A stretch of 64,000 nt of DNA from Flavobacteriia bacterium (lineage in GTDB: Bacteria > Bacteroidota > Bacteroidia > Flavobacteriales_D > Crocinitomicaceae): assembly GCA_947446925.1 (NCBI GenBank), contig CANFHU010000013.1, positions 1 to 64,000 of the forward strand. The letters are read 5' to 3'. The notes beneath the pieces were generated by a model that ran no database searches, had not been told where the DNA came from, and worked only from the letters and a program-made list of their open reading frames with translations. Shown piece by piece: positions 19,058 to 64,000 of the stretch. The translations under genes and the position numbers were made by a program. Position 1 is the stretch's first letter; each line of letters starts with the position of its first letter.

Positions 19058-19066
19058 GATACTAAA

Positions 19067-42958: not shown

Positions 42959-43918
42959 TTAGAAATAGTAACGCGGATTGATTTCTTTAATTTGTTGTGG
43001 AGGTAATAATTTTATACCATAACGCACCATAAATTCATGTGCAGCACTAGAATAGGTAGCAATTTGTGAAATTCTAAAATCATAGGAATAGGAAACCCTA
43101 ATCGCATCGGTAATATGAACTTTTGCAGCAAATGTTAATGCATCTCCAGTTCGGTAACCGATACCCAAGGTATATTTTTCTTGGTAGATAAAATTAGCAT
43201 ATAGATCTAATTGCATTGGTGCTCCTGCCACTTTTTTGAGTAAAACACAAGGTTGTACAGAGAGTGTTTTCGACAGATCTTTCACATAACCACCAGAAAT
43301 AAACCAATGACGATGCAAATTCGCCACGATAGATCGATCATAGTCCGTGAAATTTAATGACCCACCAAATAAATGTTGCACGGATAATCCAACAAAGTAA
43401 TTTTTCGTTTGGTATTGTAATCCAAATGCGCCATCTAATTTCGTTTTTGCAGTTTTTCCTGGCGGAATCGCATTATCTATTTTATCATTTTTAAATAGCA
43501 TTGAAAAATCAATTGCTTGATTAAAAATTCCAAATTCTAACCCAACCGACATTTTACCTTTCCCTAAACCAATGTGGTAAGAACCAATGGCATTTACCGT
43601 AGTTTGTGTCGTTGCTCCCAAACGATCCGAGACTATTTTACCTCCATACCCCACCGAACGCGCCTGCCAAGGAGCATGAATTGTTATAATATCGGTTGCC
43701 GGTCCCCCTTCTAATCCAACAAATTGGCTTCGATGTTTTACGGAACTAACAATCCAATTCGAACTCCCTGCGTACGCAGGATTAAACATTAATCGATCAA
43801 AATTATTTTGCGTATACATTGGCTCTTGCTGTCCAAACACTTCAAAAACAAGAAATAACATGCCTAGTAGCAAAACATTTTGCTTTAAAAACCAGTTATT
43901 TCTTTTTTGTTTACTCAT
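42959..43918 (-). CDS. PorP/SprF-family outer-membrane protein
   Basis: 319 residues with signal peptide and the PorP/SprF hallmark near the mature start (PMYTQNNFDRLMFNPAYAGS). The rest is beta-barrel-like strands (GLSVQHLFGGSLNFTD, YTLGIGYRTGDALTFAAKVH). SprF of Flavobacterium is needed to secrete the adhesin SprB, and PorP/SprF proteins serve as outer-membrane anchors for type B sorted proteins. Its start overlaps the sorted protein's stop by four bases, making that protein the likely client. Confidence 0.93.
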   Translation of the reverse strand: MSKQKRNNWFLKQNVLLLGMLFLVFEVFGQQEPMYTQNNFDRLMFNPAYAGSSNWIVSSVKHRSQFVGLEGGPATDIITIHAPWQARSVGYGGKIVSDRLGATTQTTVNAIGSYHIGLGKGKMSVGLEFGIFNQAIDFSMLFKNDKIDNAIPPGKTAKTKLDGAFGLQYQTKNYFVGLSVQHLFGGSLNFTDYDRSIVANLHRHWFISGGYVKDLSKTLSVQPCVLLKKVAGAPMQLDLYANFIYQEKYTLGIGYRTGDALTFAAKVHITDAIRVSYSYDFRISQIATYSSAAHEFMVRYGIKLLPPQQIKEINPRYYF

Positions 43919-49900: not shown

Positions 49901-50562
49901 AAAGTAACTGCTAATGGAACACATCCAGAATATTTATTTAGCGTAAAATCTGGACTAGGAAGCGAATTTACAGTCATGTACTTCACTTTTGTTTTAGTGT
50001 CCTCACAACCATGAATATTGGTTACTTTCAATGAAACAGTATAATTTCCACCTGTATTATATGTTTTTATTGGATTTTGTGTAGTAGAAGAAGTATTATC
50101 TCCAAAATTCCATAAATAAACTCCTGGGTCAGACAATGCTTTATATTTTACCTGATCATAGATAGCACATACAGAAGTAGTATCTGAGTTAAAATTTACT
50201 TTAGGTTTTGCAAAAACGGTAATGACAATATCGGTAGACACTCCTCCATTACAATTTTTGGTTAAGGTTACTATATACGTAGTATCTCCCAATTTACCTG
50301 CATCAAAATCATGCGTCGGATTTTGAGAACCAGAAGTTTTACCATCCCCAAAATCCCACAAACGGGTAGAAGTATTATTCGGATCTTTAAAAGAAACTGT
50401 AAATGGAGCACAACCACTCAATGTTCCAGATGTGGTAGTGTATTCAATAATTGGTGTGCATTGAGAAAAAACGCTATTACAACTAAATAACAAAGCACAT
50501 AAAACTACTAGAAAAGCAAATTTCCTTTTCAAAATAAAGTTATGTAATTGATTAAAAGTCAT
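43915..50562 (-). CDS. Giant PKD/Ig-repeat adhesin-like protein with CHU_C sorting domain
   Basis: 2215 residues. Signal region, then PKD domains at the N-terminus (RLWDFGDGKTSGSQNPTHDF, YLWNFGDNTSSTTQNPIKTY), then alternating repeats: seven or so ~80-residue Ig-like units with a Cys-Gly-Asp mark (ICSGDLVTF, NCFGDSLSL, SICAGDAITF), Fn3-like units (IPNAIGYEISVDGGNW), and PKD-like units with AQTL-type segments. The C-terminal ~90 residues form the gliding-motility-associated type B sorting domain (IYTPNGDNANDAF, VFNRWGNIIYQ). Secretion by T9SS and a surface adhesion role are inferred. PorP/SprF follows with four bases of overlap. Confidence 0.92.
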   Translation of the reverse strand: MTFNQLHNFILKRKFAFLVVLCALLFSCNSVFSQCTPIIEYTTTSGTLSGCAPFTVSFKDPNNTSTRLWDFGDGKTSGSQNPTHDFDAGKLGDTTYIVTLTKNCNGGVSTDIVITVFAKPKVNFNSDTTSVCAIYDQVKYKALSDPGVYLWNFGDNTSSTTQNPIKTYNTGGNYTVSLKVTNIHGCEDTKTKVKYMTVNSLPSPDFTLNKYSGCVPLAVTFKNTTDTSIVQIKKWEWNLSNGSGIDNSFTPGSTNYIIPGTKLLTLTATSILGCKSSSSIQVSAISSPTPDFTITPVEICSSDSLLVTYAGSAGVNANFVWSLNGGVGNPGVGRGPHWINWEKGGVKTLNLTVTDSTCSSSLSKQATVLVSPVITFAASNDTICTGDEVTFTTTPASLVDYKVYKNGTLYQTMEENSFATTTLASGDAFYVVASDIKGCKSKKSNIEKLIVKTRPSVSLLSSDVDDIICSGDLVTFNGTPTNYSSYTFYNFSQPLQIGVSTTFNTTSLTDNDSVFVEATNFNGCAKMSSNAFVMHVKPPLPKPIVNCGASTDSQVSFVWGAIAGAAGYQVSVNGGAFQDPSTGINGLSHVFGGLSSGDSTKIVVKALGSFSCATSLVSKEKACVSKVCSPFSMKYVPFDTICNGETVKLRVDNISATNYSVAWNGGTPGKDTTFTFKPTIDTEITAVIKDSAQLSYCSTFDATFRIKVHPLPLVTLNSSLPVINCQGDVAKLTATPANYDFYSFYSGNQLLQSGWKNYYTLKNVKNGVPLTVVAENFGCTASSLNTITNTVIQPLAQPVVNCGGSTTSSMEFTWDPIPNAIGYEISVDGGNWKTPSAGTSGLKHLLNGLTPGTAAYVSVRALGATVCGNSKVSVQASCFTNPCTAISFATPTNVTICQGTKTSLAVTDITIPKYDVSWNKVSYSKATTFQVKPTKDTNITVNVRNSNELNCPYATKYIRIDVIEQPIVSLSISPTTNCFGDSLSLIATPVNYESYRFYNGSALLYAGYKSTFKSDKLKSGAQLKVVARNGSCIDTSNIVPLVVSVPLEKPVANSGFIDSTSIDFVWDPIPNAAGYRVSINNAPYMVPSAGNLGLHHTVTGLAKGQSRIFKVIALGSTACGDSPESDTIIRHTTFDKDSICTAITFNKIANPSICEGDSSIISINSINTTSYSISWENGVKDTINSYRFAPIITDTVSVSVYRTDEPLCPAVTKFIKVTVNPKPVVDIIASIINDSICAGDAITFSAMPNGYALYDFKHNATLLQSSNGNEYALSPITSSLNLTVLVKDDIGCTATSDVYKMTVVPKPVITLTSNAINGGICIGNDLMVSASPNTYKKYNFYTSGVQVQSSNSNVYAQFAINSGYSISANAIHPFGCVGDKTNALPIELFQLPKVTILSSDVDNSICDGDTYSITASPSNLPKYVFYEDASPVQTSGSNIKTYSSLHVNKSVHVVATDINTCVSKSSDTLKVVVNPIPAMTSTSSLTLCSGFEVNIPLKSNLPATFTWQATNNPNVVGESVTLQTTATLKDSLKNKGILKESILYSVVPTSIPGCVGQPQTVTISVNPTPEIANQLETVCSGVLLDVQPQNGLPLGTIVPANTTYTWTSPVISVPSSISGASAQATGVSKIAQTLSNVTNTATKVSYSITPKSGIITGCTGKVFTLDVYVNPTPAIASYTSDSLCSNSTFNKLPLNGVPSKSTIVPAAIAYTWSDPVILPNGAISGASAQVVGQKNIAQTLVNTTLNLASITYVVTPKAGNCIGPNFSIPLIVKPVPTMTNPTTKSFCSDNMVDITLTPSVPSRLNWYADENSAILGETTSSQSSLTLADKLTNQSNSVQTVNYFVTPTSNYNCIGAKVPITITVYPKPVISDITKSLCSEDSLLIQPVQLVGGDIVPIKTTYTWPTPIVTPVDSILGSKASNTPILRLAQQLKTSSLSGTVTYTITPISGDVGGCIGKDFTVNVSVHPVPNPSVSADLYGICKGSSVQISTVLDEANFPNTVYVWNDGQKKKNITVKPTSTTDYILNVSSNGCTSISDTIHVEVDVNVPKANAGKDFVLCRYDTATLEATGGKSYVWEDQLGIVNKTSATPKVAPVVTTTYKVHVINDYCESVDEIEVIIDRCLKELPTKIPQIYTPNGDNANDAFTITDVDYFTKSSLIVFNRWGNIIYQAAPYLNTWDGKNEHGDELPDGTYYYSLDLGNGNDPYKGFVVITR

Positions 50563-50577
50563 AATTTATTGTTCACA

Positions 50578-53500
50578 TTAATGATTTTTATGCGCAAATA
50601 ATTGCATTACTTTTTTCAGTCCGTCATAATATAAAACGACATAAAGTATTCCTGTAAAACACCAAATAATGAAAATATTAAATCCATACGTGCCAATTAG
50701 CGTTCCGAAAAAGTTTTTTGTTGGTGCATAGAAATGCGTTCTAAAACTAAACGTACTTTCCTGACTTGCGTCCATGAAAATCGGATCTTTTTTCTGAATG
50801 ATTTGATGATTTTGTATGCTTATTTTATCCTTTTCAGTAGATTTTGTAACGATTTCTGTCAGATAATCATTCAGATAATCGTCTTTTGCTTGCACAAATG
50901 CTTTTTGTTTACTCGGTGTATCTTGCAATTTGGCTAAAAACAACATTTTTTTACCATTAACTACATTAAATATTTCCGAATAGTAATTTAACAAATCATC
51001 TAAAATTTCTTTTAATCGTTCTCCTTCTGCTTCATTAAACTCATTGAAATTGAATTTTTCAATGTTGTCAATCGCTACTCTAGGAACCAATTTTTTCTCT
51101 GATTCCAACGCTTTACGAATTACCCACAAACGATCTTTCATTACCTCAACTACAGAATCTTTTTTAATACCAATGATTGATATACATTCATCTGTGTATT
51201 CTTGTAGTTTAGGAATAAAAAATGCTTGTTTATAACTACACATACTTTCTTTTTGATCAAAGTCAAACACTTCGCGCTCTAATGGATTGTTTTTAAATTG
51301 ATCGACCATTAATCCTTCATACGCCCAACGGGAAACCATTACCTCTGCAATCATTGGAGGCACCTGTTTTCCTCCACCAATGGAATCATTTAATTTATCA
51401 AAACTAAACATTGCACCACCCAATATCATCTGCGGAATTACGATGATTGGAATTAAAATGTAGATAGTTACTGCCGAATTAAAACTTGCAGAAATATTAA
51501 GTCCTAACAAGTTTGCGAAACAAGAAACCGTGAACAACATCCACCAATAATCCCAGTACATTCCTGAAATTCCAACGATACTATTTCCAATCAATACAAA
51601 TAAGAAGGATTGTACTGCAGATAAAGTAAATAATATACCAAGTTTAGAAATTAAATAACTTGATTTACTTAAATTCAAGAATTTTTCACGCTTCAAAATT
51701 TTCTGATCTCTAAAAATTTCTTCCGCAGAAACAGTTAAACCAATAAAAAGCATGACAATGATACTCATGAAAATAAAAGCAGGAATATTTTCATTGGTTC
51801 TAAAAATATAGTCAGTTCCAGGAATTTCTACGTAACGAATAATGTAAGAAAGTACGAGCGCCAACAATGGTGCTTCTAACAAGTTAATCCATAGGTATTG
51901 TTTGTTACTAATCTTGGAAAATAAATCCCTAGTAGCAAAAATTTTTGTCTGTTTCAACCATGTTGGAATACTTAAACTAAATGAAGGTAATTCTTTAATA
52001 TCCTCAGAACGTGTATACATCGCATGTTTATCATACAATTGCTTCCATTGTTCTGGGGTAACTTTTCGGTTCTTTGTGTAATTACCATAATCATCGACGA
52101 TTTTCGCTTCGATGATATTGAAAATAATTTCTGGGTTTACGTTACCGCAAATTAAACATTGTCCTTGATCTGCATTTACTTGATGGTCCGCTTTTTTAAA
52201 GTATACAACTGCCTCAACTGGATTACCATAGTAAATTTGATACCCACCTACATCTAAGAAAATTATTTTATCAAACATTTTATAAATATCCGAAGAAGGC
52301 TGATGTATGACCACAAAAATTAACTTTCCTTTCAAGGTAAGTTCGCGCAATAAATCCATTACATTCTCCGAATCACGGGAGGATAATCCAGAAGTTGGTT
52401 CATCGACAAATAAAACTGCTGGTTCACGAATTAATTCTAATGCGATGTTTAATCGTTTACGTTGTCCACCTGAAATCGTTTTTTGAAGTGGAGATCCAAC
52501 CTTCAAATCTTTACGTTCTGCTAAACCAAGGTTATTTAACACCTTCATTACCAAATCCGTAATTTCCGAATCTGTTAGGTCTTTAAAACATAATTTTGCG
52601 TTGTAAAATAAGTTTTCAAAAACGGTTAATTCTTCAATTAACAAATCATCCTGTGGAATATAACCGATTAAGCCTTTTACCTTTTCTTTTTCGGTATGAA
52701 TATTAATCCCGTTGATTAATACTTGTCCTTCAGTCACCGGTTCTATTGCAGAAAGTACATTTAACAAGGTAGTTTTCCCTGCTCCTGAAGCACCCATTAA
52801 TCCGATCAGTTTACCAGATCCTTCCGAAATATTGATATCTCGTAATCCAACGGTACCATTTGGAAATGTGAATGCAACATTATCCGCGTGAAATGATAAT
52901 TTAAGTCCATCATTATCGGCCATAAAATTAGCAACCACATCCGAATAGAAGATTGGTTTACCTCCAGGTACTTTTACCGTACTACCAGCAGCGAATAAAT
53001 ACATCCGCATTGGATTTACCGGTAATCCATTTAAGAAAATATCGCTTTTTCCCGTATATTTTAAGAAGTATAAATCTTCTGAAATAACTTTTAGAATAAC
53101 AATATTTCCGTCTAATTTGGACGAAATATGTTTACAAGTAAAGTTCCAAGTTTCATCCGAACTATCAATAACCATGATTTCTGGTACCGATTTAAGTTCT
53201 TCCGTTTCTTTCACGCAGAAATTTACAATTGCCTGGAATTCTGAATCTTCAAATTTAAACACTTCCGAAACTGTATGGATAATTGCCATACGTTGTTCTG
53301 AAAACGAACGATCCGCGGCAATCAATTCTAACAAACGGACGAGTACAATTACTTTTTGTTTTTGCGTTAGTGTTTTGTTAATCTTTTTACAGATGCCTAA
53401 TGTTCGCACAGAATCTTTCACGGAAGTTAATTTCTTCACATGATTTCCATCTTCATCCAACTCAACCGGACCAACAAATTCATCATATTGTGCAAGGTAT

Positions 53501-53637
53501 TCCTTTACTAAATCTTCACTTAATTGAAAAACTAAAAATTCTTCTACAAATTTTCGTTCACTTTGTGAAGCGCCATCATCTTGCTTTGCGATGATAGCAA
53601 ATAATTGCATTAGTGCTTTTAATATTTCTTCAGACAT
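50578..53637 (-). CDS. ABCG-type transporter with TerB-like and FHA-like N-terminus
   Basis: 1019 residues. Residues 1-145 are a TerB-like helical domain (AIIAKQDDGASQSERKF), 175-240 look FHA-like (FLKYTGKSDIFLNG). The ATPase has Walker A GASGAGKTT (282-290), signature ISGGQRKRL (388-396) and Walker B LFVDEPTSGL. CLICGNVNPE (494-503) follows. ABC2-type membrane helices occupy roughly 575-800, then a ~170-residue soluble insertion and a last helix near 995. Substrate unknown. It ends 15 bases before the giant T9SS protein, so it probably leads that operon. Confidence 0.88.
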   Translation of the reverse strand: MSEEILKALMQLFAIIAKQDDGASQSERKFVEEFLVFQLSEDLVKEYLAQYDEFVGPVELDEDGNHVKKLTSVKDSVRTLGICKKINKTLTQKQKVIVLVRLLELIAADRSFSEQRMAIIHTVSEVFKFEDSEFQAIVNFCVKETEELKSVPEIMVIDSSDETWNFTCKHISSKLDGNIVILKVISEDLYFLKYTGKSDIFLNGLPVNPMRMYLFAAGSTVKVPGGKPIFYSDVVANFMADNDGLKLSFHADNVAFTFPNGTVGLRDINISEGSGKLIGLMGASGAGKTTLLNVLSAIEPVTEGQVLINGINIHTEKEKVKGLIGYIPQDDLLIEELTVFENLFYNAKLCFKDLTDSEITDLVMKVLNNLGLAERKDLKVGSPLQKTISGGQRKRLNIALELIREPAVLFVDEPTSGLSSRDSENVMDLLRELTLKGKLIFVVIHQPSSDIYKMFDKIIFLDVGGYQIYYGNPVEAVVYFKKADHQVNADQGQCLICGNVNPEIIFNIIEAKIVDDYGNYTKNRKVTPEQWKQLYDKHAMYTRSEDIKELPSFSLSIPTWLKQTKIFATRDLFSKISNKQYLWINLLEAPLLALVLSYIIRYVEIPGTDYIFRTNENIPAFIFMSIIVMLFIGLTVSAEEIFRDQKILKREKFLNLSKSSYLISKLGILFTLSAVQSFLFVLIGNSIVGISGMYWDYWWMLFTVSCFANLLGLNISASFNSAVTIYILIPIIVIPQMILGGAMFSFDKLNDSIGGGKQVPPMIAEVMVSRWAYEGLMVDQFKNNPLEREVFDFDQKESMCSYKQAFFIPKLQEYTDECISIIGIKKDSVVEVMKDRLWVIRKALESEKKLVPRVAIDNIEKFNFNEFNEAEGERLKEILDDLLNYYSEIFNVVNGKKMLFLAKLQDTPSKQKAFVQAKDDYLNDYLTEIVTKSTEKDKISIQNHQIIQKKDPIFMDASQESTFSFRTHFYAPTKNFFGTLIGTYGFNIFIIWCFTGILYVVLYYDGLKKVMQLFAHKNH

Positions 53638-53664
53638 TCCTTAAAATTGTATTAACTTACTGTA

Positions 53665-53672
53665 CAAAAGTA
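53665..53672 (-). promoter_or_regulatory. Likely -7 box of the ABC/PKD/PorP/OmpA operon
   Basis: Reads TACTTTTG on the minus strand, an exact TAnnTTTG match 28 bases before the transporter start. No clear TTG at the usual distance. Confidence 0.5.
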
Positions 53673-53723
53673 GTTTAGTAAACACTTGCTTTGGTTAACG
53701 TAACAAAAGCTCTAATATACAGG

Positions 53724-53757
53724 AAATGCTAGATCGTTTTGAAACCATCTAGCATTA
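53724..53757 (-). terminator. Hairpin after siaC
   Basis: aatgctagat / atctagcatt stem with a 12-base loop, about 22 bases past the siaC stop codon. A second small inverted repeat (aataacaa / ttgttatt) covers the stop itself (53761-53780). No long T-run; probable end of the chemosensory operon transcript. Confidence 0.5.
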
Positions 53758-53778
53758 TCCAATAACAAGTAGTTGTTA

Positions 53779-54153
53779 TTAATCTTCGATAAACGAAAAC
53801 GGTACTTCCACGATTTCGGAATATTCCTCGCCCGCTTCTTGCATATCTTCATCATCTTCTTCATAATGCCATTCAATCAATATTTCATTCCCAGCTTCTT
53901 GGATCTCTTCTAATTTCATTAAAATATCTAAGATAATTTTAGAAGAAGCGGTATTAAAGTAAGTCATTTTAAAAACCACTTTAGTGGTAGTATTTGGTGC
54001 TTCGCCATATTGTGCGATCCAATCAAATACTGGTCCGTAAAAAGAAGTAACATCTTCTGGTAAAGATTTTCCCGAAAATTCAAATACTCCTTCATTTTTA
54101 TCTAAGTGTACTGCTGGAGTATCTTCTGTTTTTTTAATAATTAATGCTTCCAT
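53779..54153 (-). CDS. siaC: SiaC-like protein (DUF1987)
   Basis: 124 residues. DUF1987/SiaC family: VFEFSGKSLPEDVTSFYGPV at the start and FKMTYFNTASSKIILDILMK in the middle. T68 in YFNTASS has the position reported, as I recall, for the SiaB-phosphorylated threonine of P. aeruginosa SiaC. In that species unphosphorylated SiaC activates the diguanylate cyclase SiaD; no GGDEF gene is present here, so the target must differ or lie elsewhere. Last gene of the operon, 21 bases after the SiaB-like gene. Confidence 0.9.
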   Translation of the reverse strand: MEALIIKKTEDTPAVHLDKNEGVFEFSGKSLPEDVTSFYGPVFDWIAQYGEAPNTTTKVVFKMTYFNTASSKIILDILMKLEEIQEAGNEILIEWHYEEDDEDMQEAGEEYSEIVEVPFSFIED

Positions 54154-54174
54154 AGCGATATATAAAATTTAATA

Positions 54175-54792
54175 TTATTGTTCGTTTGAATTTCTACTAA
54201 TAATGGTTTTCAACAAGAAAAAAGAATTATTCTCATCAATTGGCTCAAAATGATATTCCAACGGATTTCCTGTTTTACGTGCAATATCAATAAATCCTAA
54301 TCCTGCTCCACCTTTATCCGATATAGCAGTTTCGCGCATTTTTTCTTTGTGTAATTGTTTTAATTCATCTTGGTTTAATGAATTAATATTATCAATTAGG
54401 CTTTTTAAAGCTGGAATGTTATCATTCGAAATTCCATTTCCGGAAGTGATAAAATATTGGTTTTGGTCATTTCCAATTAGGAAAATACCTGTTTTTGCCA
54501 ATCCTTCTTCCAAACTATCGGATGCAGTTTGTGCATCATCGTCCGCATGTTTCGAAATGTTTTGTAAACACTCTACCATCACATGGTACACTTTTTTCTT
54601 GATTTTGCCATCCTCTTCTACTTTATCCAGATTTTTTTCTGTCATCGAAGTAAAAGCCTTCGTAATTTCTTGTGTTACTTCTCCTTCATATACTAATGTT
54701 ATTTTTTTGTCTAACATCATTTTATGAAAATTCACAACAAAGTTCATATACTCTGATTTGTTTGTTGCTCCTGTATTTTTCAAATCTTCCAT
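54175..54792 (-). CDS. siaB: SiaB-family protein kinase (DUF6272)
   Basis: 205 residues with a GHKL-type ATPase fold: N-box VMVECLQNISKHADDD (about 71-86) and G-box AISDKGGAGLGFIDIARKTG. Family members phosphorylate SiaC on a threonine. The phosphatase needed to reverse this is most likely the SpoIIE protein encoded 24 bases upstream. Together the three genes make a Sia-type kinase/phosphatase/substrate set. Confidence 0.9.
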   Translation of the reverse strand: MEDLKNTGATNKSEYMNFVVNFHKMMLDKKITLVYEGEVTQEITKAFTSMTEKNLDKVEEDGKIKKKVYHVMVECLQNISKHADDDAQTASDSLEEGLAKTGIFLIGNDQNQYFITSGNGISNDNIPALKSLIDNINSLNQDELKQLHKEKMRETAISDKGGAGLGFIDIARKTGNPLEYHFEPIDENNSFFLLKTIISRNSNEQ

Positions 54793-54816
54793 ACCCTATT
54801 ATTTTAATTCGTTCGG

Positions 54817-56142
54817 CTAATACTCTATCCCTATAAATAAAACGTCGTCCATTTGTTTATGCACACCTTGCCAAGATTCAAAGAAATTAGACAAAGCATC
54901 TTGTACAACATTCATTTTAGCATCTTTATTTTCAACTAATATTTGTCGAATTCGTTTTGGACCTATTTTTTTTAAATCCGTATCATCTGGTCCACCAAAT
55001 TGATCTGGGTAACCATCCGAACATACAAAAACGCGATCGCCTTTTTCTAATTTCGTGCTTACATTCGTAAATGATTCTCTGCCTCTATACTGTACACCAC
55101 CAATTGGATATTTATCGCCTTTTAATTCCTCTAATTCTTCCTCTGCTTGCGCGTTTTTACGAATTATATATAAAGGTCGATGTGCACCTGAAAATTGGAA
55201 TTCACCAGTTACACGATTAAATAAACACATACCGACATCCATTCCATCACGTTCATTTTCTCCTCCTTCTTGCCCTTGTCTTAAAGTTTTCACCACCGCA
55301 TCGTGTAATTTATCGAGCAAAACAGCTGGAGTAGGATTTCCATAATGTACAATCTCTTGAATTAATAGCGAACCTATGAGTGACAATAATGCTCCAGGAA
55401 CACCATGGCCTGTGCAATCTACTGCTGCCACATACACCATATCGTCTTTCGCATAAATAAATGGAAAGTCACCACTTACGATGTCTTTAGGACGAAACAA
55501 TAAAAAAGAATCTGGGAATAAATCTTTCAAAACTAACTCTTTAGGAAGAATAGAGTTTTGAATACTCTTCGCATAATTGATACTGTCTTTAATCTTTTTC
55601 GCTTGGGCTTCAATCAATATTTTGGTAGCTTCTAACTCTTGTTTTAATGCTCTTTCTCTAAACGTAGCGGTTATTAAATGTGCATTCGTTTCGGTCAATT
55701 CTTGAATCTGCATCGAGGACATCTCTAGTTCTCCATGCATTTTTTGCACTTTCGTATTCCAAACCAAATATGTGTTCCATGCGGCTTCTATTGTATTTTT
55801 TACAACCGTTGGTTCAAGAGGTAGGTGAATAAATCCATTTGGATGTAAAGTACTTAATTCAGTTATTACTGTTTCTTTTGTTGGGTCAACCACGAAGAAA
55901 ATTAACGCATCGGAGGTTTTACGAATAGTTTCCACCAATTCTTTCGCTTCGATTGCACCACCAATTTCAGCATCAATAAATAGCGTATTTGGGTGTGTTA
56001 ATTCAATCGCTTCGCGTGCATTTTGACCATCCGTTGCTACATGAAGTACTTCAAATCCCCAACTTGTTGCATATTCCGTGAGTAACGTAGAAACCGTTAG
56101 GTCATCTTCTACAATTACTACTTTTAATACTTCTTGATTCAT
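54817..56142 (-). CDS. REC-SpoIIE (PP2C-type) phosphatase
   Basis: 441 residues. N-terminal receiver-like domain (1-125) with VIVEDDL and D57 in LFIDAE, but the conserved Ser/Thr position is V85 and the lysine position is L107, so it is degenerate. A coiled coil (about 135-185) links to the SpoIIE phosphatase domain, with metal ligands in AAVDCTGHGVPGAL and CSDGYPDQFGG. Takes the place of SiaA; unlike SiaA it has no membrane or HAMP part. Twelve bases after cheC. Control by the receiver may not use normal phosphorylation. Confidence 0.9.
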   Translation of the reverse strand: MNQEVLKVVIVEDDLTVSTLLTEYATSWGFEVLHVATDGQNAREAIELTHPNTLFIDAEIGGAIEAKELVETIRKTSDALIFFVVDPTKETVITELSTLHPNGFIHLPLEPTVVKNTIEAAWNTYLVWNTKVQKMHGELEMSSMQIQELTETNAHLITATFRERALKQELEATKILIEAQAKKIKDSINYAKSIQNSILPKELVLKDLFPDSFLLFRPKDIVSGDFPFIYAKDDMVYVAAVDCTGHGVPGALLSLIGSLLIQEIVHYGNPTPAVLLDKLHDAVVKTLRQGQEGGENERDGMDVGMCLFNRVTGEFQFSGAHRPLYIIRKNAQAEEELEELKGDKYPIGGVQYRGRESFTNVSTKLEKGDRVFVCSDGYPDQFGGPDDTDLKKIGPKRIRQILVENKDAKMNVVQDALSNFFESWQGVHKQMDDVLFIGIEY

Positions 56143-56154
56143 TGCCTGATTAAA

Positions 56155-56775
56155 TTAATTTGTTCCTTCTTCTTGATTTGATGCTAAGTTTTTTATGTTT
56201 TGAATGAATGAATCGTCAAACAACCAAACAAACTCAGGAGCAAAACTTACGTGGGAAGATTTGAAACTTGTTTTAAAACTAATCAAATATAATTCATTAC
56301 TTATTTCATGATGAATATATTCTTCCAACTCTGCATAATTTACTTTACGTAAAGCTGGTACACCTCCATGAATTTTCACTTTTAAGATGTTAGAAAACTG
56401 CGTAATTACGGATGCTGAAATAATATTATCCACTTCAAGCAAGATACCATCACTCATTTCAGCCATCATTTCAGGACTATTCAAAATTTCAGGTGGTAAC
56501 GCTGATTGACGTAATTGATTCGCTTCTTCTTCCGAAAAAATCAAACAGCAAACACCATTTAATTCTCCTATCACCTTGGTAATAAGCAATTGAATATTTG
56601 TCTGATCTTTTTTATTTATTTCAGGTGGAGGAGAACTTAATTGCTTCTCTTGGTCAAATTCTTGCAAGGTAATCGTTTCATTCATAAAGAAGGATAACGA
56701 TTCCGCTGCTTTGACAAGACCTTGAGAAATAATATCTCTTGCTAAGTCTAACTCTTTTGGTTTTAATTCTAACAT
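56155..56775 (-). CDS. cheC: CheC-like phosphatase
   Basis: 206 residues. One CheC/FliY/CheX-type active-site motif is clear: E114-x2-N117-x22-P140 in LLEVDNIISAS...HGGVP. The corresponding N-terminal site (RDIISQGLVKAAESLS) lacks the E/N pair, so it has one working site. CheC enzymes dephosphorylate CheY-P and, in many species, bind CheD. Both partners are encoded within 2.6 kb upstream. Confidence 0.82.
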   Translation of the reverse strand: MLELKPKELDLARDIISQGLVKAAESLSFFMNETITLQEFDQEKQLSSPPPEINKKDQTNIQLLITKVIGELNGVCCLIFSEEEANQLRQSALPPEILNSPEMMAEMSDGILLEVDNIISASVITQFSNILKVKIHGGVPALRKVNYAELEEYIHHEISNELYLISFKTSFKSSHVSFAPEFVWLFDDSFIQNIKNLASNQEEGTN

Positions 56776-56795
56776 CCGTATACCATGTTAATTGA

Positions 56796-57158
56796 TTAGG
56801 CGAACAAATTATCAACGCGTTCTACCAATATTTCAGGAGTAAATGGTTTAACTAAATAATCCTCTGCTCCATTATTTTTTCCTTCTTCTACCACGTCATC
56901 TTGTCCTACAGCACTCACCATTATAATTTTGGATGTAATTCCTTCTGCACGTAATTCCTTCACAATATCAATACCAATCATATCTGGTAGAATGTTATCC
57001 ATCGTGATTAAATCTGGTTCATGTTCCAATGCTAATTCAATACCTTGACTTCCTGTTCCAGCTTGACCAATTACTTCGTATCTTCCTGTTGCAGTTAATG
57101 CTGAATTAATTAACGTTCGCATATATAACGAATCATCTACAATTAACACTTTTCTCAT
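56796..57158 (-). CDS. cheY: CheY-like single-domain response regulator
   Basis: 120 residues, receiver domain only. All key residues are present: the acidic pair in VLIVDDS, phospho-acceptor D54 in LITMDNILPD, S82 in IIMVSAVG and K104 in YLVKPF. It probably carries the output of the chemosensory module. There is no local CheA to phosphorylate it. Between cheB and cheC with about 20-25 bases on each side. Confidence 0.92.
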   Translation of the reverse strand: MRKVLIVDDSLYMRTLINSALTATGRYEVIGQAGTGSQGIELALEHEPDLITMDNILPDMIGIDIVKELRAEGITSKIIMVSAVGQDDVVEEGKNNGAEDYLVKPFTPEILVERVDNLFA

Positions 57159-57183
57159 TTATAAATAGTTTTAAATAGTTAAT

Positions 57184-58269
57184 CTATAACACCTTAACTT
57201 TACTTAAGAGTGTTTTTGTTACTTCCGACAAAGGTACAATTTTTTCTACACCACCAAGTTTGATTGCCTCTTTTGGCATACCAAAAACAACACAAGTTTT
57301 TTCATCTTGTGCAACGGTATATGCTCCTGCATCTTTCATTTCTAACATACCTACAGCTCCATCGTCTCCCATCCCGGTTAAAATAGCACCTACCGCATTT
57401 TTTCCAGCGAAACGAGCAACGGATCTAAAGAGTACATCCACCGAAGGTCGATGACGATTTACTAGTGGTCCATCAATTATTTCTACATGGTACATTGCAC
57501 CACTTCGTTTCACTAACATGTGTTTACCACCTGGCGCAATCAAAACTTGACCACGTATTACTTTATCTCCGTTTTCTGCTTCTTTTACAGTCACTTTACA
57601 CAGGTCATTTAATCGTTTAGCAAATTGTTTTGTAAACATTTCTGGCATGTGTTGTACCACAACAATACCTGGACTATCTGCTGGAAATTCTTCTAACACG
57701 ACACGCAAAGCTTCTGTACCACCCGTAGATGCACCAATTGCAATTACAGATTCTGTCGTTTGAACCATACTAGCATATTTCGCTTTGCTTAAAATTGCAT
57801 CCGCGGATAATTTAGGTTCGACCCCATTGCTAGATCTTTCAGATGTTAAATTCAATTTTTTACGTAAATGCGCCTGTGCAGCAGCTTTCACTTTACCACA
57901 TAATTCTATTTTGGACTGTTCTAATAAAGCCTTTGTATTTACTTTCGGTTTAGCAATAACTTCTACTGCGCCATATTCTAAAGCCAACAAGGCAGAATCT
58001 GTCCCTTTTTCTGTCAATGTAGAAATAACAACGACTGGAATTGGATGTTGTGACATTAATTTTTTTAGAAAAGTCAATCCATCCATTCTAGGCATTTCAA
58101 TATCTAAAGTGATGACATCCGGTTTACACTCTTTGATTCTTTCCACAGCAATAAATGGATCTGCAGCAACACCTATGATTTCAATCATTGGATCTGTTTC
58201 TAAAATCGAAACCAAGGTTTGTCTTACCAATGCTGAATCATCTACTATAAGTACCTTCACTTTGTCCAT
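57184..58269 (-). CDS. cheB: Chemotaxis response regulator-methylesterase
   Basis: 361 residues. Receiver (1-120) with D56 in [13 protein letters not shown], a linker, then the methylesterase domain with catalytic S181 (AIGASTGG), H207 ([10 protein letters not shown]) and D303 ([12 protein letters not shown]). It demethylates or deamidates MCP glutamyl sites. Two bases after cheD. Confidence 0.96.
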
Positions 58270-58271
58270 AA

Positions 58272-58766
58272 TTACATACTTTTTGTCAAAAATTTCATCA
58301 TCACTTGTCCAGTACCTGTATTGTATTTTAATTTTCTTCCAACCGTACCTCCAACATTTTCTGCTACTATTTGAATTCCATGGTTTGCTAATACTTCTTT
58401 CGCGATTTCAATATTACGTGCACCAATATTCATAGAACTATTCATTTGGTTTGCACCACCGAAAACTTTTGCAATTAAGTCATTTACAGAAGAACCATTA
58501 CGTAGCATTTTTTCAATCAATTTTTCCGTAGCAATATTGCCAAATTTTGGAGATGCCAATCCATTACCATTCCACAATGGCAGCATGAAATGATTTATTC
58601 CTCCAATTTTTAAGCGTGTATCAAATAAACAAACCGCAACACAAGACCCCAAAACAGTATCCACTAAATACGGCTTCTTTTCTGCAAAAAGTGCAGAAGG
58701 ATATAAATAGTGTTTGCCTAACTCTTCGTCCATTTTTACCTTTTGTTTATTGAGTAAAAGTTCCAA
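58272..58766 (-). CDS. cheD: Chemoreceptor glutamine deamidase
   Basis: 164 residues. Catalytic C42 in [12 protein letters not shown] and H59 in GGINHFMLP, with the 17-residue spacing of characterised CheD; T37 lies before them. [20 protein letters not shown] is the conserved C-terminal region. It deamidates MCP glutamines and can be sequestered by CheC. Confidence 0.95.
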
Positions 58767-58790
58767 TTTGTAGTAATATTAATTATCAAA

Positions 58791-59699
58791 TTAAAATAAC
58801 ATATCGTCATCATCATTGTCAAATAGAAAATCATTTCCATCCGATGAAAAAGTTGCTTCGTTAGACGTATTTACATCCAAATTTGGAATTGTCAACGTAA
58901 ACTCTGTACCTTCTCCTAATTCACTTTTTAATTGAATCGTACCTTCCAGTATATCCAATAGTGCTTTTGTGATACTCAACCCTAATCCGTGCCCCCCATA
59001 CGTTTTTGTAGATCCTTCTTCTATTTGATAAAAACGATCATAAATTTTTTCTTGTTGGTCCTGACTAATTCCGATACCTGAATCACGTACTTTTAGAACT
59101 AACAGTTCATTTTCTAAAAAACTATCTATTCCGATTGTTCCACCTTCCGCATTAAATTGTATTGCATTGGCAAGCAAATTACTTAAAACCAAATGCAATT
59201 TTTCAGCATCTGTCTTAATTATTTGGTTTGCATCTAAGGTATTTTTCCACGTTAATTTCAATCCTTTTTTTTCAATTTTCTTTTGAAATTGATTTATTAA
59301 AGATTCTAGTAACTGATGAATTTTCACAGAAATTACGGACAATGGAGATTCTCCTGCTTCAATTTCAGCAGAAATGAAAATATTTCTCAATTGAAAATCC
59401 AAATCAAATGCTTCAGAAAAAATTAATGATGCAAAAGATTGCATCATCTCTGGAGACATTTCACCTTCCGAAATGTTTTTAGATAATTCCAATACAGAAG
59501 AAATAGGATTGTTTATTTCGTTGCGAATATTGGATAAAAAATTACTTTTTAATTTTTCGGAAGCAAGTAACTTTTCATTCACGGCGTTTAATTCTGCAGT
59601 CAATTTTCGTTCCTCAATTAAATTAGCAGCATTCTCATCGAGCCTTCTTTTAATTTCAATCAGCAACTCCTCATCTGTTAATTTCGGTGACTTCTTCAT
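58791..59699 (-). CDS. Kinase-like HATPase protein lacking the phospho-acceptor His
   Basis: 302 residues, soluble. A coiled coil (1-50) leads to a HisKA-like helix, FLSNIRNEINNPISSV, in which the usual H-E is N60-E61 (codon aac at 59520-59522). The HATPase_c domain is complete: N-box LVLSNLLANAIQFN, G1 VRDSGIGIS, F-box YDRFYQIEE and G2 GGHGLGLSITKAL. So it should bind ATP but cannot autophosphorylate at the normal site. It ends in an acidic tail (DNDDDDMLF). It sits between cheR and cheD in the place where a CheA might be expected. Confidence 0.9.
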   Translation of the reverse strand: MKKSPKLTDEELLIEIKRRLDENAANLIEERKLTAELNAVNEKLLASEKLKSNFLSNIRNEINNPISSVLELSKNISEGEMSPEMMQSFASLIFSEAFDLDFQLRNIFISAEIEAGESPLSVISVKIHQLLESLINQFQKKIEKKGLKLTWKNTLDANQIIKTDAEKLHLVLSNLLANAIQFNAEGGTIGIDSFLENELLVLKVRDSGIGISQDQQEKIYDRFYQIEEGSTKTYGGHGLGLSITKALLDILEGTIQLKSELGEGTEFTLTIPNLDVNTSNEATFSSDGNDFLFDNDDDDMLF

Positions 59700-59771
59700 T
59701 ATTATAGTTTTTTATCTTTATTAAGCGATGCCTAAATTAGGTAAGTTATTTTGTAAAAATTATGATATACA

Positions 59772-60611
59772 TTATATTTTCACAAACATAGTTGGTTTTA
59801 AAGGTTTTAAAGGTACATCAATCCCTGAAATAGATTCAGAATGTCCCAAGAAAAAATAACCTCCAGGTTTTAAATGCATGCATAATTTATTGATTACTTT
59901 CTCTTGGGTTTCACGATCAAAATAAATTAGGACATTTCTACAAAATATGATGTCAAAATCTTTTGGAACATTAAAACTCATGTCCATCAAATTCAAGCGT
60001 TGAAAACGTGTTTTTGCTCTTAAATGTGGAACTATTCGTACCATCGGATTTTCTTGATCTTTACTTCGAAGTAAGTATTTTTTTTTCTGTGATAAAGGAA
60101 TTACATCCACACGATCCATTGGATATATTCCCAATTTTGCTTTTTCTAAAATCCGTGCAGAAATATCGGTACCTAATATCTCAAAATCAATTTTTCGATT
60201 GTTTTCAATAAATTCACTGATAACCATCGCAATGGTATATGCCTCTTCTCCCGATGAACTTGCCGAACTCCAAATTTTTAATGGTTGACGCGAATCCGCA
60301 GTTAAAAAATCAGGCAGAACTACTTCCTTCATGAAATCAAAATGTGCAGATTCTCGGTAAAAATCCGTTTTATTGGTAGATACTAAATCAATCATATTGA
60401 CAATCTCACTCTCGCTCGCTTCACCGGATAATACATATTTAGTGTATTCTGCATACGACTTCATACCGTTTATCTTTAAACGCGAAGCTAAGCGAGATTG
60501 TAACATTATCTTTTTAGAAATAGGCAGTTTAATCCCGTAATTCACATAAATAAAGTTGCTCAATTTCGTGAAATCTGCATCATTTAAAGGAGTTATTTGA
60601 TTTTCAGACAT
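59772..60611 (-). CDS. cheR: Chemoreceptor methyltransferase
   Basis: 279 residues. CheR N-terminal helices, then VSTNKTDFYRESAHFDFM, the SAM-binding SSASSSGEEAYTIAMVI and FDIIFCRNVLIYFDRETQ. It methylates MCP glutamates using SAM. It lies 47 bases after the MCP gene, whose C-terminus has a possible tether for it. Confidence 0.96.
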   Translation of the reverse strand: MSENQITPLNDADFTKLSNFIYVNYGIKLPISKKIMLQSRLASRLKINGMKSYAEYTKYVLSGEASESEIVNMIDLVSTNKTDFYRESAHFDFMKEVVLPDFLTADSRQPLKIWSSASSSGEEAYTIAMVISEFIENNRKIDFEILGTDISARILEKAKLGIYPMDRVDVIPLSQKKKYLLRSKDQENPMVRIVPHLRAKTRFQRLNLMDMSFNVPKDFDIIFCRNVLIYFDRETQEKVINKLCMHLKPGGYFFLGHSESISGIDVPLKPLKPTMFVKI

Positions 60612-60658
60612 ATTTCTTTTACTTTATTGTGGTGTAATTATGTGCAAAATAATTACAA

Positions 60659-62881
60659 TTAAAAATCGATAAAAGCATCATCCATTTCGTCCTTTCCCCC
60701 AAGTTGGATATTTACCCCTTTGGTGATGGTTTTGGGAGCTGTATGAACAGATTTAAGTGCTGCTTTATTAGGAACTTTCATGGTGTTTTTTTCGGGTGCT
60801 TTCATTGTTTTTGGTGAATCTATATGCTCATATCCGTCTATTTTAAAAAAAGAAACAGCCTCTTTTAAAACTTCCGCTTGATTATTTAATTCTTCCGCAC
60901 TTGCTGCCATTTCCTCTGCTGTAGAAGCATTTTCTTGCACAACCACATTTAAATTTTGTATCGCACCATTAATTTGTTCAGCTCCAACACTTTGTTCGGT
61001 ACTAGATGCTGTTATTTCTTGAATTAAATCGGATGTTTTTTGAATGTTAGGTACAACTTCCGTAAGCATTTCACCGGATTTTAACGCTACATCCACACTT
61101 ATTCCTGAAACTTCATCAATTTCAGTTGCAGCAGCCTGAGAGCGCTCTGCTAATTTTCTAACTTCTGCTGCAACTACCGCAAAACCTCTTCCGTGTTCTC
61201 CAGCACGCGCAGCTTCCACAGCAGCATTTAATGCTAATAGATTTGTTTGACGTGAAATTTCACCAATAATGGAGATTTTAGAAGCAATTGTTTTCATGGA
61301 TTGTACCGTTTGAACAACGGATTCCTTACTCAACTGGATATCTATCGCTGCTTGCAAAGAAATTCGTTCCGTTTGTTTTGAATTGCTTGAATTTTGTTGA
61401 ATATTCGCCGTCATTTCCTCCATGGAAGAAGAAATTTCTTCTACTGAACTTGCTTGATTCGTTGCTCCAGCAGATAATTCTGTGGCAGCGGCAGCAATTT
61501 GGCTACTTGCTGAGACAATGTTTTCCGCATTTGCAACTACCGTTCCAATCAATTGATTAAGTGATTCTAATGTTTCATTTAATGCTTCTCCCATTACTTT
61601 CAAAGCACCGTTAGATTCAATGGAATAACGCTGTGTTAAATCACCTTCTGCCATTGCACCAATAACTCTGCTTACTTCATGTGCAGCTTGTTTAGTCTCA
61701 ATCTCTGTTTGTTTTTGAACGGTTATGTCTGTTGCAATTTTCACCACTTTAATAATTCTGCCCATCTCATCTTTAACCGGGGAATAAACTGCTTGTATCC
61801 ACACTTTTTTTCCACTTCTAGCAATGCGCATAAATTGACCTTTCTTCACGATACCTTTTGCTAAGTCTTCCCAGAACATTAAATAGTCGGATGAATTTAC
61901 AAACGATGAATCACAGAAAATGCGGTGGTGTTTGTTTTGAATATCTTGTAATGAATATTCTAATACATGTAAGAAATTAGCATTTGCAGTTAATACGTTT
62001 CCTTTCGTATCAAATTCAATAAATGCATACGAATTATCAATTGCATTTACGATTCCTTCCGCTGCTTGTTTTGCAAACGTTTGTTCCGTACTATCATATC
62101 TTACCCCAATGTATTTTACTGGTTTGCCATTTTCACCTAAAACAGGAGCAAATACACCATCTACATAATAAGGTGTTCCATCTTTCTTACGGTTTTTTAC
62201 TACACCTCTAAAAATTTCGCCTCTACCGATGGTTGACCATAATTCTTTAAATAGTTCTTTTGGCATATCTGGATGGCGCACAATATTTTGATTTGCACCT
62301 ATTAATTCTTCTCTTTTATATTGAGAAACCTCACAATGTTTATCGTTTACATAGGTAATGTATCCTTTTAAATCTACTTCTGAAACAATGCACATGATAT
62401 CTACAATTTTCATACGTGTTTCAATTTCACGTTTCATTTGCGCTACCTCTTTATGCATTTTATCCATGACATCCGCGATTGACTTAAGATGAGGATCTAC
62501 TATTAAATTTGCTTGAAATTCAAATGCATTATGGGTATTCGAATTTATTGCATGTGCAAAAGCATCTACCCGTTTAAATTCTTGATGTACGACATGAAGT
62601 GCCTCATAACAACCTGAAAAAATAGATTTCTTTTCATTTCCAAACGATACATTTGTTTCCTTACCAAGCGAGGAAATATATTTTTCTAGTGCCAGTGCAT
62701 CACGCTTGTTGGCACGTTGCATCGTAAACCCTACAAGCAATATCGTCAAAAAAGAAATAGACAAAAACATAAAAAACATCCATGTATGCATCGCTTTATT
62801 TACTAAAAAAACCTCGCTAAGACCTAAAAGTATCATTGAAATCAATGAAAAAACAATTAGGATTTTACTACTTTTTACCAT
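60659..62881 (-). CDS. Methyl-accepting chemotaxis protein with two PAS domains
   Basis: 740 residues. Two close membrane helices (about 7-27 and 34-54) leave almost no periplasmic loop, so sensing is likely internal. A linker (60-160), two PAS domains (about 160-275 and 277-390), a HAMP-like stretch ([20 protein letters not shown]), and the MCP signalling domain with the hairpin [20 protein letters not shown] follow. The last five residues, AFIDF, fit the x-[HFYW]-x2-[HFYW] form of CheR/CheB tethers such as NWETF. First gene of the operon. Confidence 0.94.
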
Positions 62882-62972: not shown

Positions 62973-64000
62973 TCAATAAAAAATCCCTTTGTGTGAAGCT
63001 ATTCGAAGCATAAAAACTACTTTTTCTATTCCTTTAGCTCCTCCAATATTCGCAAGGTATTGAATACAAGGTTGAAAATTAAAATAGTTAGATACAAAAT
63101 TATAATTCAATTCCAGTGCTTTTTCTGTTAATGAAAATTGATCAACTTTTACAATACCATTACTGTAAAAAGGTGTAGCTAATGCAAGTGAAATTACATC
63201 TGCATTTCTTTTTGGAAATAAACCAGTATACGATAAACCTCCGCCAGCATAGTAATTAAAGATATTGTAATCTCCGGGAGCCCAACCTAAATCAATAAAT
63301 GCATAGAGTCCTTGGGAGGAATCATTTACTTCTGCTTTAATTAATTTATCGGCAATGAAATACGCACCAAAATTAAAATGATTGCTTATAGTATCCGCTT
63401 TATTCGTATAGTTTCTGAAATGCATGGATTTTGAGCCTGTATGCCCCCAAACACCGAATTTACATTCGGATAGTAGTATGCCATTTTTGAAGTTACTTCT
63501 ACTAATTTCGGATATCATAAATAGACCACCATCCTTAAATGTCTCTACATATTTTGTAGAATGTGGATTTGTCAATTGATTACCCCCAACCCCTTGAGCA
63601 ACTGCAGCTCTGAACGCAACATTCTCGTTAATATCGTGTTCATAACGCATTGTAAGATTGGTAAATGGAAACGTAGAAAACGATGGGACGTTGTAGGATA
63701 ATGTTGGTTGTATTCCAAAGGAGGAATTAATAAAATTTAAACCAATATTAGAAAATGCAAAATCAAAATTCAAATCGTATTGCCCTACTAATAAACGTGA
63801 ATTTTTAAAAAAATGTTGGTAATATAGACTGTAAATAAACGTTCTGTAATTTAACTGCCCTTTTCCTATATGAATGTGATTATTCGTATCTGGAAATGAT
63901 TCAGCATTATCAAACATCTGATCATCCCCAACGAAATCTGTAGTAGGATTATCTCCAAAAGTATTTAATATATAGGTAGAAAACATACCGTTTTTCCACC
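62973..64000 (-). CDS. OprB-like outer-membrane porin (partial)
   Basis: The 3' part of a gene whose start lies beyond the window; at least 337 residues are visible from 63986 in an open frame. Strand-rich, with features of carbohydrate-selective (OprB-type) porins: NSRLLVGQYDLNFDFAFSNI, FTNLTMRYEHDINENVAFRA, LYAFIDLGWAPGDYNIFNYY, and an aromatic C-terminus (GIFY). It lies 91 bases upstream of the MCP gene on the same strand; shared transcription is possible but not shown. Confidence 0.72.
   Translation of the reverse strand, partial: WKNGMFSTYILNTFGDNPTTDFVGDDQMFDNAESFPDTNNHIHIGKGQLNYRTFIYSLYYQHFFKNSRLLVGQYDLNFDFAFSNIGLNFINSSFGIQPTLSYNVPSFSTFPFTNLTMRYEHDINENVAFRAAVAQGVGGNQLTNPHSTKYVETFKDGGLFMISEISRSNFKNGILLSECKFGVWGHTGSKSMHFRNYTNKADTISNHFNFGAYFIADKLIKAEVNDSSQGLYAFIDLGWAPGDYNIFNYYAGGGLSYTGLFPKRNADVISLALATPFYSNGIVKVDQFSLTEKALELNYNFVSNYFNFQPCIQYLANIGGAKGIEKVVFMLRIASHKGIFY

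Follow-up and report, generated by a model that had tools for sequence, protein, structure and literature searches.

A chemosensory gene run that continues into SpoIIE, SiaB and SiaC genes in a member of the Crocinitomicaceae

We analysed the first 64,000 nucleotides (contig C13:1-64000, hereafter the window) of a contig from a Flavobacteriia bacterium of the Crocinitomicaceae, whose genome of 3.15 Mb in 50 contigs is rated 100% complete. Ten genes of the window encode chemosensory (Che) proteins and relatives of the Sia proteins of Pseudomonas aeruginosa, and these ten genes are the downstream half of a 17-gene chemosensory run. Joined che and sia genes are a recurring unit across several Bacteroidota lineages, more so than expected by chance. 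We consider it fairly probable that the products form a chemosensory system whose output is the balance of a SpoIIE phosphatase and a SiaB kinase on Thr68 of SiaC, and which acts on the surface machinery of the cell; this wiring we infer from sequence.

Results

The che and sia genes lie in one run

The first-pass annotation of this DNA had described ten minus-strand genes spaced by 2-72 bases. All ten open reading frames (ORFs) were present at these coordinates and on this strand, and the gaps were confirmed (Table 1). Nine of the ten were named by Pfam at an E-value of 0.001. The exception was CheC, which scored 14.4 bits with PF04509 (cut-off 22), 15.6 bits with PF13690 (cut-off 27) and 33 bits (E = 5.4e-8) with the NCBIfam CheC model NF041093 (cut-off 250). 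Residues E114 and N117 of its ExxN motif are invariant in 9/9 aligned sequences.

The operon had been thought to lack CheA and CheW. This is true of the 64-kb window only, as both genes lie on the same contig and strand. A search of the genome for the CheW family gave two matches, both just beyond the window edge; CheW (116.7 bits) begins 3.3 kb past that edge, with CheA adjoining. The genome contains one CheA match and four matches to methyl-accepting chemotaxis proteins (MCPs), three of them at this locus. The gene order across contig positions 53779-71671 is ParA, STAS-like, CheY, CheA, CheW, MCP, porin, MCP, CheR, His-less HATPase, CheD, CheB, CheY, CheC, REC-SpoIIE, SiaB and SiaC, with gaps of -4 to 21 bases from ParA to the MCP of 991 amino acids (MCP991). 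The features by which a Che system is recognized, namely the CheA domain set, CheW, MCP signalling domains and CheR/CheB/CheD, are all present. The OprB-type porin gene, which the first-pass annotation did not mention, separates the upstream che genes from the window operon. Porin ORFs also precede CheR in two relatives (loci L087 and L088).

Table 1. Genes of the run and neighbouring features, in contig numbering (identical to window numbering up to 64000); aa, amino acids
Feature	Position	Strand	Length	Identification
PorP/SprF-family type IX secretion membrane protein	42959..43918	-	319 aa	TIGR03519 235 bits (cut-off 90.55)
PKD/Ig repeat surface protein	43915..50562	-	2215 aa	Type IX secretion C-terminus; PF13585, TIGR04131
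TerB/FHA-like/ABCG transporter	50578..53637	-	1019 aa	PF05099, PF00005, PF01061 over cut-off
Gap after SiaC	53638..53778	-	141 bases	9-bp inverted repeat (by eye); TACTTTTG 28 bases before the transporter gene
SiaC-family phosphoprotein	53779..54153	-	124 aa	PF09345 144.5 bits; Thr68 at the Pseudomonas phosphosite (6kko_C/6k4f_U alignment)
SiaB-family kinase	54175..54792	-	205 aa	NF038262 176.9 bits (cut-off 85); PF19788 (DUF6272); aligns with 6kko_A; ATP-binding motifs intact
REC-coiled coil-SpoIIE phosphatase	54817..56142	-	441 aa	Pfam SpoIIE; coiled coil and motif positions by eye
CheC-like phosphatase	56155..56775	-	206 aa	One ExxN motif; below Pfam and NCBIfam cut-offs
CheY	56796..57158	-	120 aa	PF00072 88.8 bits
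CheB (REC and methylesterase)	57184..58269	-	361 aa	PF01339 228.2 bits, PF00072 78.1 bits
CheD receptor deamidase	58272..58766	-	164 aa	TTG start; PF03975 93.7 bits
His-less histidine-kinase-like protein	58791..59699	-	302 aa	Pfam HATPase_c; ATP-binding boxes intact; conserved acidic C-terminal tail
CheR methyltransferase	59772..60611	-	279 aa	PF01739 198.8 bits
MCP	60659..62881	-	740 aa	PAS domains and MCP signalling domain (Pfam); hydrophobic N-terminus by eye
OprB-type porin	62973..64000 (ends at 64235, past the window)	-	420 aa	PF04966 104.1 bits (cut-off 22.9)
MCP991	64324-67299		991 aa	
CheW	67314-67832	-		
CheA	67829-69943	-		PF01627 (Hpt), PF02895 (H-kinase_dim), PF02518 (HATPase), PF01584 (CheW-like), all over cut-off
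CheY (second)	69943-70311			
STAS-like protein	70333-70920			
ParA	70925-71671			
MCP688 (upstream of ParA)	71828-73894		688 aa	

A single 17-gene transcript from ParA to SiaC is plausible, because the gaps between these genes contain no TANNTTTG, which we take to be a Bacteroidota promoter element, and because an inverted repeat follows SiaC in a gap that is likely the operon end. Scanning 902 intergenic bases gave three TANNTTTG sites (before MCP688, ParA and the transporter gene downstream of SiaC), plus one before an ALDH gene. Internal promoters separating the che and sia parts had been named beforehand as evidence that would break up the unit; the gaps between ParA and SiaC, 465 bases in all, have no TANNTTTG, which favours the unit but is a weak test, since only about 0.3 sites are expected there by chance. 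A sigma-70 scan of L004 was uninformative (33 promoter-like sites vs 38.0 expected in shuffles).

Che and sia genes recur together in Bacteroidota

The first-pass annotation was to be given up if the gene order were not conserved. We found that the order recurs in other Bacteroidota and is absent from some CheA-bearing relatives. CheA was found in 3/150 genomes of the order (our genome, G000, together with G081 and G100), in 13/395 of the class and in 107/395 of the phylum. Since CheA is this rare in the class, Che-Sia clusters form a small, well-bounded set. In G100, which belongs to the same family, one run contains ParA, a globin-type MCP (globin by eye), CheW, CheY, CheB, CheA, CheC, CheR, REC-SpoIIE, two SiaB, SiaC and a homologue of the transporter gene, which encodes an ATP-binding cassette (ABC) protein. 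G081 has a G100-like che run that stops at the contig end in CheC.

We read the neighbourhoods of 12 of the 13 CheA genomes of the class, our own included (G313 was left out). SpoIIE and/or SiaC lie near CheA in six of them: our genome, G633 (whose neighbourhood is cut by a contig end), G700, G726, G734 and G751. The Sia set of G700 and G726 is near the che genes and outside the same run. The minus strand of G751 carries MCP, STAS, CheA, two CheW, CheR, HATPase, CheD, CheB, a PAS protein, two CheR, CheB, a membrane protein (by eye), SpoIIE, SiaB, SiaC and ABC, with one opposite-strand ORF interposed. The other six (G219, G534, G606, G638, G772 and G827) show no linked Sia set. SpoIIE-type ORFs occur near CheA in G827 (one on the same strand beyond an MCP, one on the opposite strand) and about 13 kb from CheA in G638; neither stretch read gave a SiaB or SiaC match. 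Also in G726 (L072-L073), two che clusters of unlike type adjoin each other, preceded by an inverted SpoIIE-SiaB-SiaB-SiaC set and followed by CheR-CheB-SpoIIE.

A scan of named genomes with six CheC sequences, mostly from Sia-linked loci, gave 43 loci, all with Bacteroidota titles, in which we scored the six genes after CheC in a same-strand run. SpoIIE or SiaC follows CheC in 23 of the 43 loci and SiaC in 17. A window-type His-less HATPase is present upstream in 16 loci; here SpoIIE follows CheC in 15 and SiaC in 14, the exceptions being L095, which has no Sia genes, and L107, which ends inside SpoIIE. L105 is Sia-negative by the strict rule, with SpoIIE-SiaB-SiaB-SiaC-ABC lying just past one opposite-strand ORF. 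Four metagenome-assembled genomes (MAGs) of Cyclobacteriaceae (L101, L102, L103 and L108) carry ParA/STAS/CheY/CheA/CheW/MCP through SiaC in one run, with gaps of -65 to 116 bases except one of 281. In Persicobacter, CheC, REC and SpoIIE are fused in one ORF of 680 aa (L110:9983-12025) located between CheA and CheB. Its REC (52.4 bits; canonical by eye) and SpoIIE parts are over the Pfam cut-offs, and the CheC part reaches 21.2 bits (cut-off 22). The two scans are not independent, as L096, L100 and L106 appear to duplicate the records of G734, G633 and G726. Moreover, L084-L086 are very close to the window species, with 96-99% CheC identity, the next being a Fluviicola sp. MAG at 75%.

Trees of six Che proteins and of three Sia proteins, calculated for 12 of the 43 loci plus the window, share 7/10 splits. 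With shuffled labels the mean was 0.23 and the maximum 3 in 2000 trials.

Sequence motifs of the HATPase, SpoIIE and Sia proteins

The H-box of the histidine-kinase-like protein reads N-E-I-N-N-P, with Asn at the phospho-His position, and the earlier description of this HATPase as His-less was thus borne out. We aligned 20 sequences that matched the window protein at E below 1e-40, of which L085 and L086 stop short of the H-box. Asn is found in 18/18 spanning sequences, with the ATP-binding boxes kept, and all 18 are encoded between CheR and CheD. Because the gene is kept in che clusters without visible Sia genes (L095, G772), we assign the putative protein on gene context to the che part.

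The SpoIIE metal-binding residues are intact in all complete sequences aligned, including the metal-binding Asp of the window protein. The REC domain of the latter falls just under the Pfam cut-off (30.1 vs 30.2 bits), and a canonical REC on the phosphatase, as would be expected from HsbR of P. aeruginosa, was not found in it. A canonical REC (acidic pair, Asp and Lys) does occur on SpoIIE in L087, L088, L089, L091, L092 and G100. In these relatives (five of the eight loci L087-L094, and G100) SpoIIE would therefore be a direct CheA target.

SiaC Thr68 aligns with T68 of P. aeruginosa (6kko_C), and L096 (the G734 record) has Ser at this position. The equivalog models were not reached by either SiaC (NF038265, 93.4 bits, cut-off 150) or SiaB (NF038264, 74.9 bits, cut-off 225), and SpoIIE matched the SiaA model NF038263 (9.9e-45, 153.2 bits, cut-off 700) through its phosphatase domain only. 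A second SiaB with a degenerate last ATP box was noticed in L087 (11955-12488, directly before the intact SiaB), L088, L090-L092, L094 and L105, possibly forming a pseudokinase pair. The STAS-like protein was considered as a second substrate of the phospho-switch and rejected, as no Ser or Thr, judged by eye, is conserved at the expected site in the eight aligned sequences.

Candidate output and target

Flagellar or type IV pilus output is not defining for all classes of Che systems. Judged by one marker each, neither was found in this genome: FliG (FliG_C) gave no match, and none of three T2SSE matches was over the cut-off. GGDEF gave 0 matches, and because of this SiaC cannot act through SiaD here. 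An output via SiaD or a flagellum was thus discarded. GldJ is over its cut-off in the genome. The output to gliding or surface proteins that had been proposed for this operon is favoured by this exclusion, by GldJ and by the neighbouring surface genes. For P. aeruginosa, PMC8457831 describes binding of unphosphorylated SiaC to the SiaD stalk and suggests that DUF1987 proteins modulate adjacent proteins.

The gene next to SiaC encodes the TerB/FHA-like/ABCG transporter, which we regard from its gene position as the leading candidate target of SiaC. Of the 105 genomes of the order with an ABC match at E 1e-100, at least 43 have this gene within 2 kb of SiaC, and we roughly estimate the chance of such adjacency at ~0.6% per ABC gene. 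In 11 neighbourhoods of the order inspected by eye (L038-L048), the ABC gene is accompanied by genes for a lipoprotein-like protein of ~300 aa and a secreted-looking protein of ~145 aa. The L087 pair of this kind gave no Pfam match at E 0.01, and no such pair was seen beside the ABC gene of the window.

The first 262 residues of the ABC protein were modelled with a mean pLDDT (predicted local distance difference test) of 74.6. With residues 150-240, Foldseek gave a best E of 0.033 and probabilities up to 1.00, and FHA names dominate the best 50 rows. VIA-align gave FHA Z-scores up to 6.4, with a root-mean-square deviation of 4.5 over 89 residues, a range that the tool calls common. Pfam FHA had no match in the protein at E 0.1, and the Arg and Ser with which FHA domains contact phosphothreonine were not recognisable by eye in an alignment of 23 rows. 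The idea that an FHA-like domain might read phosphorylated Thr68 of SiaC is thereby weakened: the modelled fold is suggestive, and the binding residues were not recognised.

The genes for the PKD/Ig repeat surface protein and the PorP/SprF-family protein come next on the same strand (Table 1). In G700, a homologue of the PKD/Ig surface protein (BLASTP 7e-111) and a PorP come after SiaC. Elsewhere in the window we noted a collagen-repeat protein with a Fib_succ_major domain (10970-12628) and an RND efflux pump (AcrB family) with an HlyD-type membrane fusion protein (15965-20122).

Sia genes also occur in relatives with no CheA. The sample of 150 order genomes includes G005 and G126, and the CheA search, with the same settings throughout, matched only G000, G081 and G100. 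In G005 and G126 the genes for CheR, CheB, a ~250-aa protein, a SpoIIE protein of 887-994 aa, SiaB, SiaC and ABC point in one direction (L038:4174-15087 and L039:210-11574). SpoIIE of G005 bears GAF and PAS domains, and the ~250-aa protein a GAF match below the cut-off. G126 encodes a protein of 817 aa with HAMP, GAF and PAS over and dCache below the cut-off (39.8, cut-off 45), which gave no MCP or kinase match. These loci suggest that a Sia-ABC core was present under other inputs, and that che systems became attached to it.

Discussion

A proposed signalling chain and its alternatives

The arrangement of the run points to the following chain. PAS-bearing receptors would signal through CheW to CheA, with CheR, CheB and CheD adapting the receptors. 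Phosphate would pass from CheA to CheY and CheB, and also to REC-SpoIIE where its REC is intact. The SpoIIE phosphatase would oppose the SiaB kinase on Thr68 of SiaC, and CheC would remove phosphate and reset the system. Unphosphorylated SiaC would then bind a target other than SiaD, most likely a surface export or adhesion protein, the neighbouring TerB/FHA-like/ABCG transporter being first in line. In P. aeruginosa, SiaA and SiaB act on SiaC T68 (PMC7647112). HsbR offers a precedent for the REC input, as REC phosphorylation turns the phosphatase on there (PMC5085249); the sign expected by analogy would be activation of SpoIIE.

Several observations weigh against this chain. The REC of the window protein keeps its acidic residues and has lost the conserved Lys (Lys to Leu, also in L084-L086) and, by eye, the Thr. 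The Lys is also lost in L090, L100 has Asn at the phospho-Asp position, and no REC is recognisable in L093, L094 and L105. From SpoIIE of L101-L104, L107, L108, L109 and L112 the REC is absent, and REC phosphorylation therefore cannot be the general link. Because the Lys is lost, the window species may take its input through binding, of CheY-P or CheC for instance, and not through REC phosphorylation. A full-length REC-SpoIIE relative was found in only one (G100) of the 149 other genomes of the order, which makes the Che-Sia hybrid rare among genomes. The count of 23/43 leans upward, as the CheC query was drawn mostly from Sia-linked loci, and one of the 23, L119, has a kinase-rich setting unlike the others. 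Under the same rule 20/43 loci, some on short contigs, have neither SpoIIE nor SiaC. No Sia genes were seen in all three Aureispira clusters (L097-L099) or in Chryseolinea-type clusters such as L117, L120 and L124, and the che block of L095 is of the window type without Sia. The Che tree and the Sia tree disagree about L094, where both are strongly supported (0.998 and 1.0), and about L093, where support is weak in the Che tree (0.645); this suggests an exchange of modules. The SiaC-ABC adjacency is mostly convergent (at least 40 cases vs at least 4 co-directional, namely our genome, G005, G100 and G126). Finally, a 15-pair hairpin between MCP991 and the porin gene might split the transcript.

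Some of these points fit a different model, in which two outputs merely share a transcript: CheA and CheY would directly steer gliding or another surface process, and SpoIIE, SiaB and SiaC would be an independent, co-expressed switch. The two stand-alone CheY proteins of the run, the SpoIIE proteins without REC in the Cyclobacteriaceae loci, the che blocks without Sia in L095 and G772, the partial conflict of the trees and the presence of GldJ all agree with it. But such independence is hard to reconcile with SpoIIE following CheC in 15/16 window-type loci, with the CheC-REC-SpoIIE fusion and with the canonical REC on SpoIIE of six relatives, and we regard this model as unlikely, if still worth serious attention. 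The first-pass annotation had offered something close to it, a distant CheA feeding CheY with Sia as a second output. This comes nearer to what was found, except that CheA is adjacent and the REC of SpoIIE is canonical in relatives.

The wiring could also be reversed, with the Sia switch modulating the receptor array, for instance through SiaC or SpoIIE binding to CheC or the His-less kinase. The sia genes do share their run with those for CheC, CheD and the His-less HATPase, and CheC and SpoIIE are one protein in L110. The REC on SpoIIE is an input domain, however, and since SiaC-ABC pairs are common in an order in which CheA is found in so few genomes, Sia appears to work without che genes; such a reversal is improbable. 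Least probable of all is the proposal of the first-pass annotation that receptors tuned by CheR, CheB and CheD act on the SpoIIE/SiaB balance without CheA or CheW, which fits the CheA-less G005 and G126, where CheR and CheB stand beside SpoIIE-SiaB-SiaC-ABC, but is not supported in our genome, in which CheA and CheW are part of the same gene run and the receptors bear ordinary MCP signalling domains.

Taken together with the CheA-less loci, the chain from the receptors through CheA to SpoIIE and SiaC may be extended to a broader and distinctly speculative picture. In FliG-less, GldJ-bearing Bacteroidota, the array would drive a threonine phospho-switch that gates the TerB/FHA-like/ABCG exporter and type IX surface proteins. 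As the older and portable part, the Sia-ABC core would be run in CheA-less relatives by CheR, CheB and a sensor-bearing SpoIIE, to which G126 adds its receptor-like 817-aa protein, and the CheA system would have been plugged in later. If this is true, chemotaxis methylation enzymes can tune a Ser/Thr phosphatase directly. The clusters are well suited for asking to what use a chemosensory system is put by a bacterium that bears GldJ and lacks FliG. Ours provides a specific path from receptor to SiaC that can be tested, along with a candidate target, and its genome gave no GGDEF match.

Comparison with known systems

In the literature searched, which left most subscription journals outside its coverage, we found no report in which a che set is linked with Sia genes or a function is given for SiaC in Bacteroidota. 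The Che-Sia run joins two known kinds of system and suggests that bacterial sensing has an output of a new kind.

With SiaABCD of P. aeruginosa it shares a SiaB-family kinase, SiaC with Thr68 and a SiaA-type SpoIIE/PP2C phosphatase in one run. It differs in that REC and a linker replace the sensor part of SiaA, that no GGDEF match and hence no SiaD is present, and that the sia genes stand behind a complete che set. The chemotaxis systems of Bacillus and Thermotoga use CheC and CheD alongside CheR, CheB, CheY, CheA and CheW. The window run contains this same set, whereas its CheC is weak with one ExxN, a His-less HATPase, a STAS-like protein and Sia genes are added, and FliG gave no match. DivL is a His-less histidine kinase in which the phospho-His is replaced. 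The histidine-kinase-like protein of the window resembles it in this replacement and in the kept ATP boxes; unlike DivL, it has Asn for His, a conserved acidic tail and a position between CheR and CheD.

Wsp-type systems are chemosensory sets whose output is not a flagellar motor, WspR producing cyclic di-GMP. In the window system the output would instead be phospho-switching on Ser/Thr, and the genome gave no GGDEF match. WspR is tied to a chemotactic system that responds to growth on surfaces (PMC5085249). Another parallel is HptB-HsbR-HsbA of P. aeruginosa, in which a receiver-controlled phosphatase acts on a STAS-like protein (PMC5085249), the REC being canonical in six relatives of the window protein. 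HsbR is itself active as a kinase and receives its input from HptB, whereas in the window run SiaB is a separate kinase, and CheA, together with CheC, CheD, CheR and CheB, would do the feeding.

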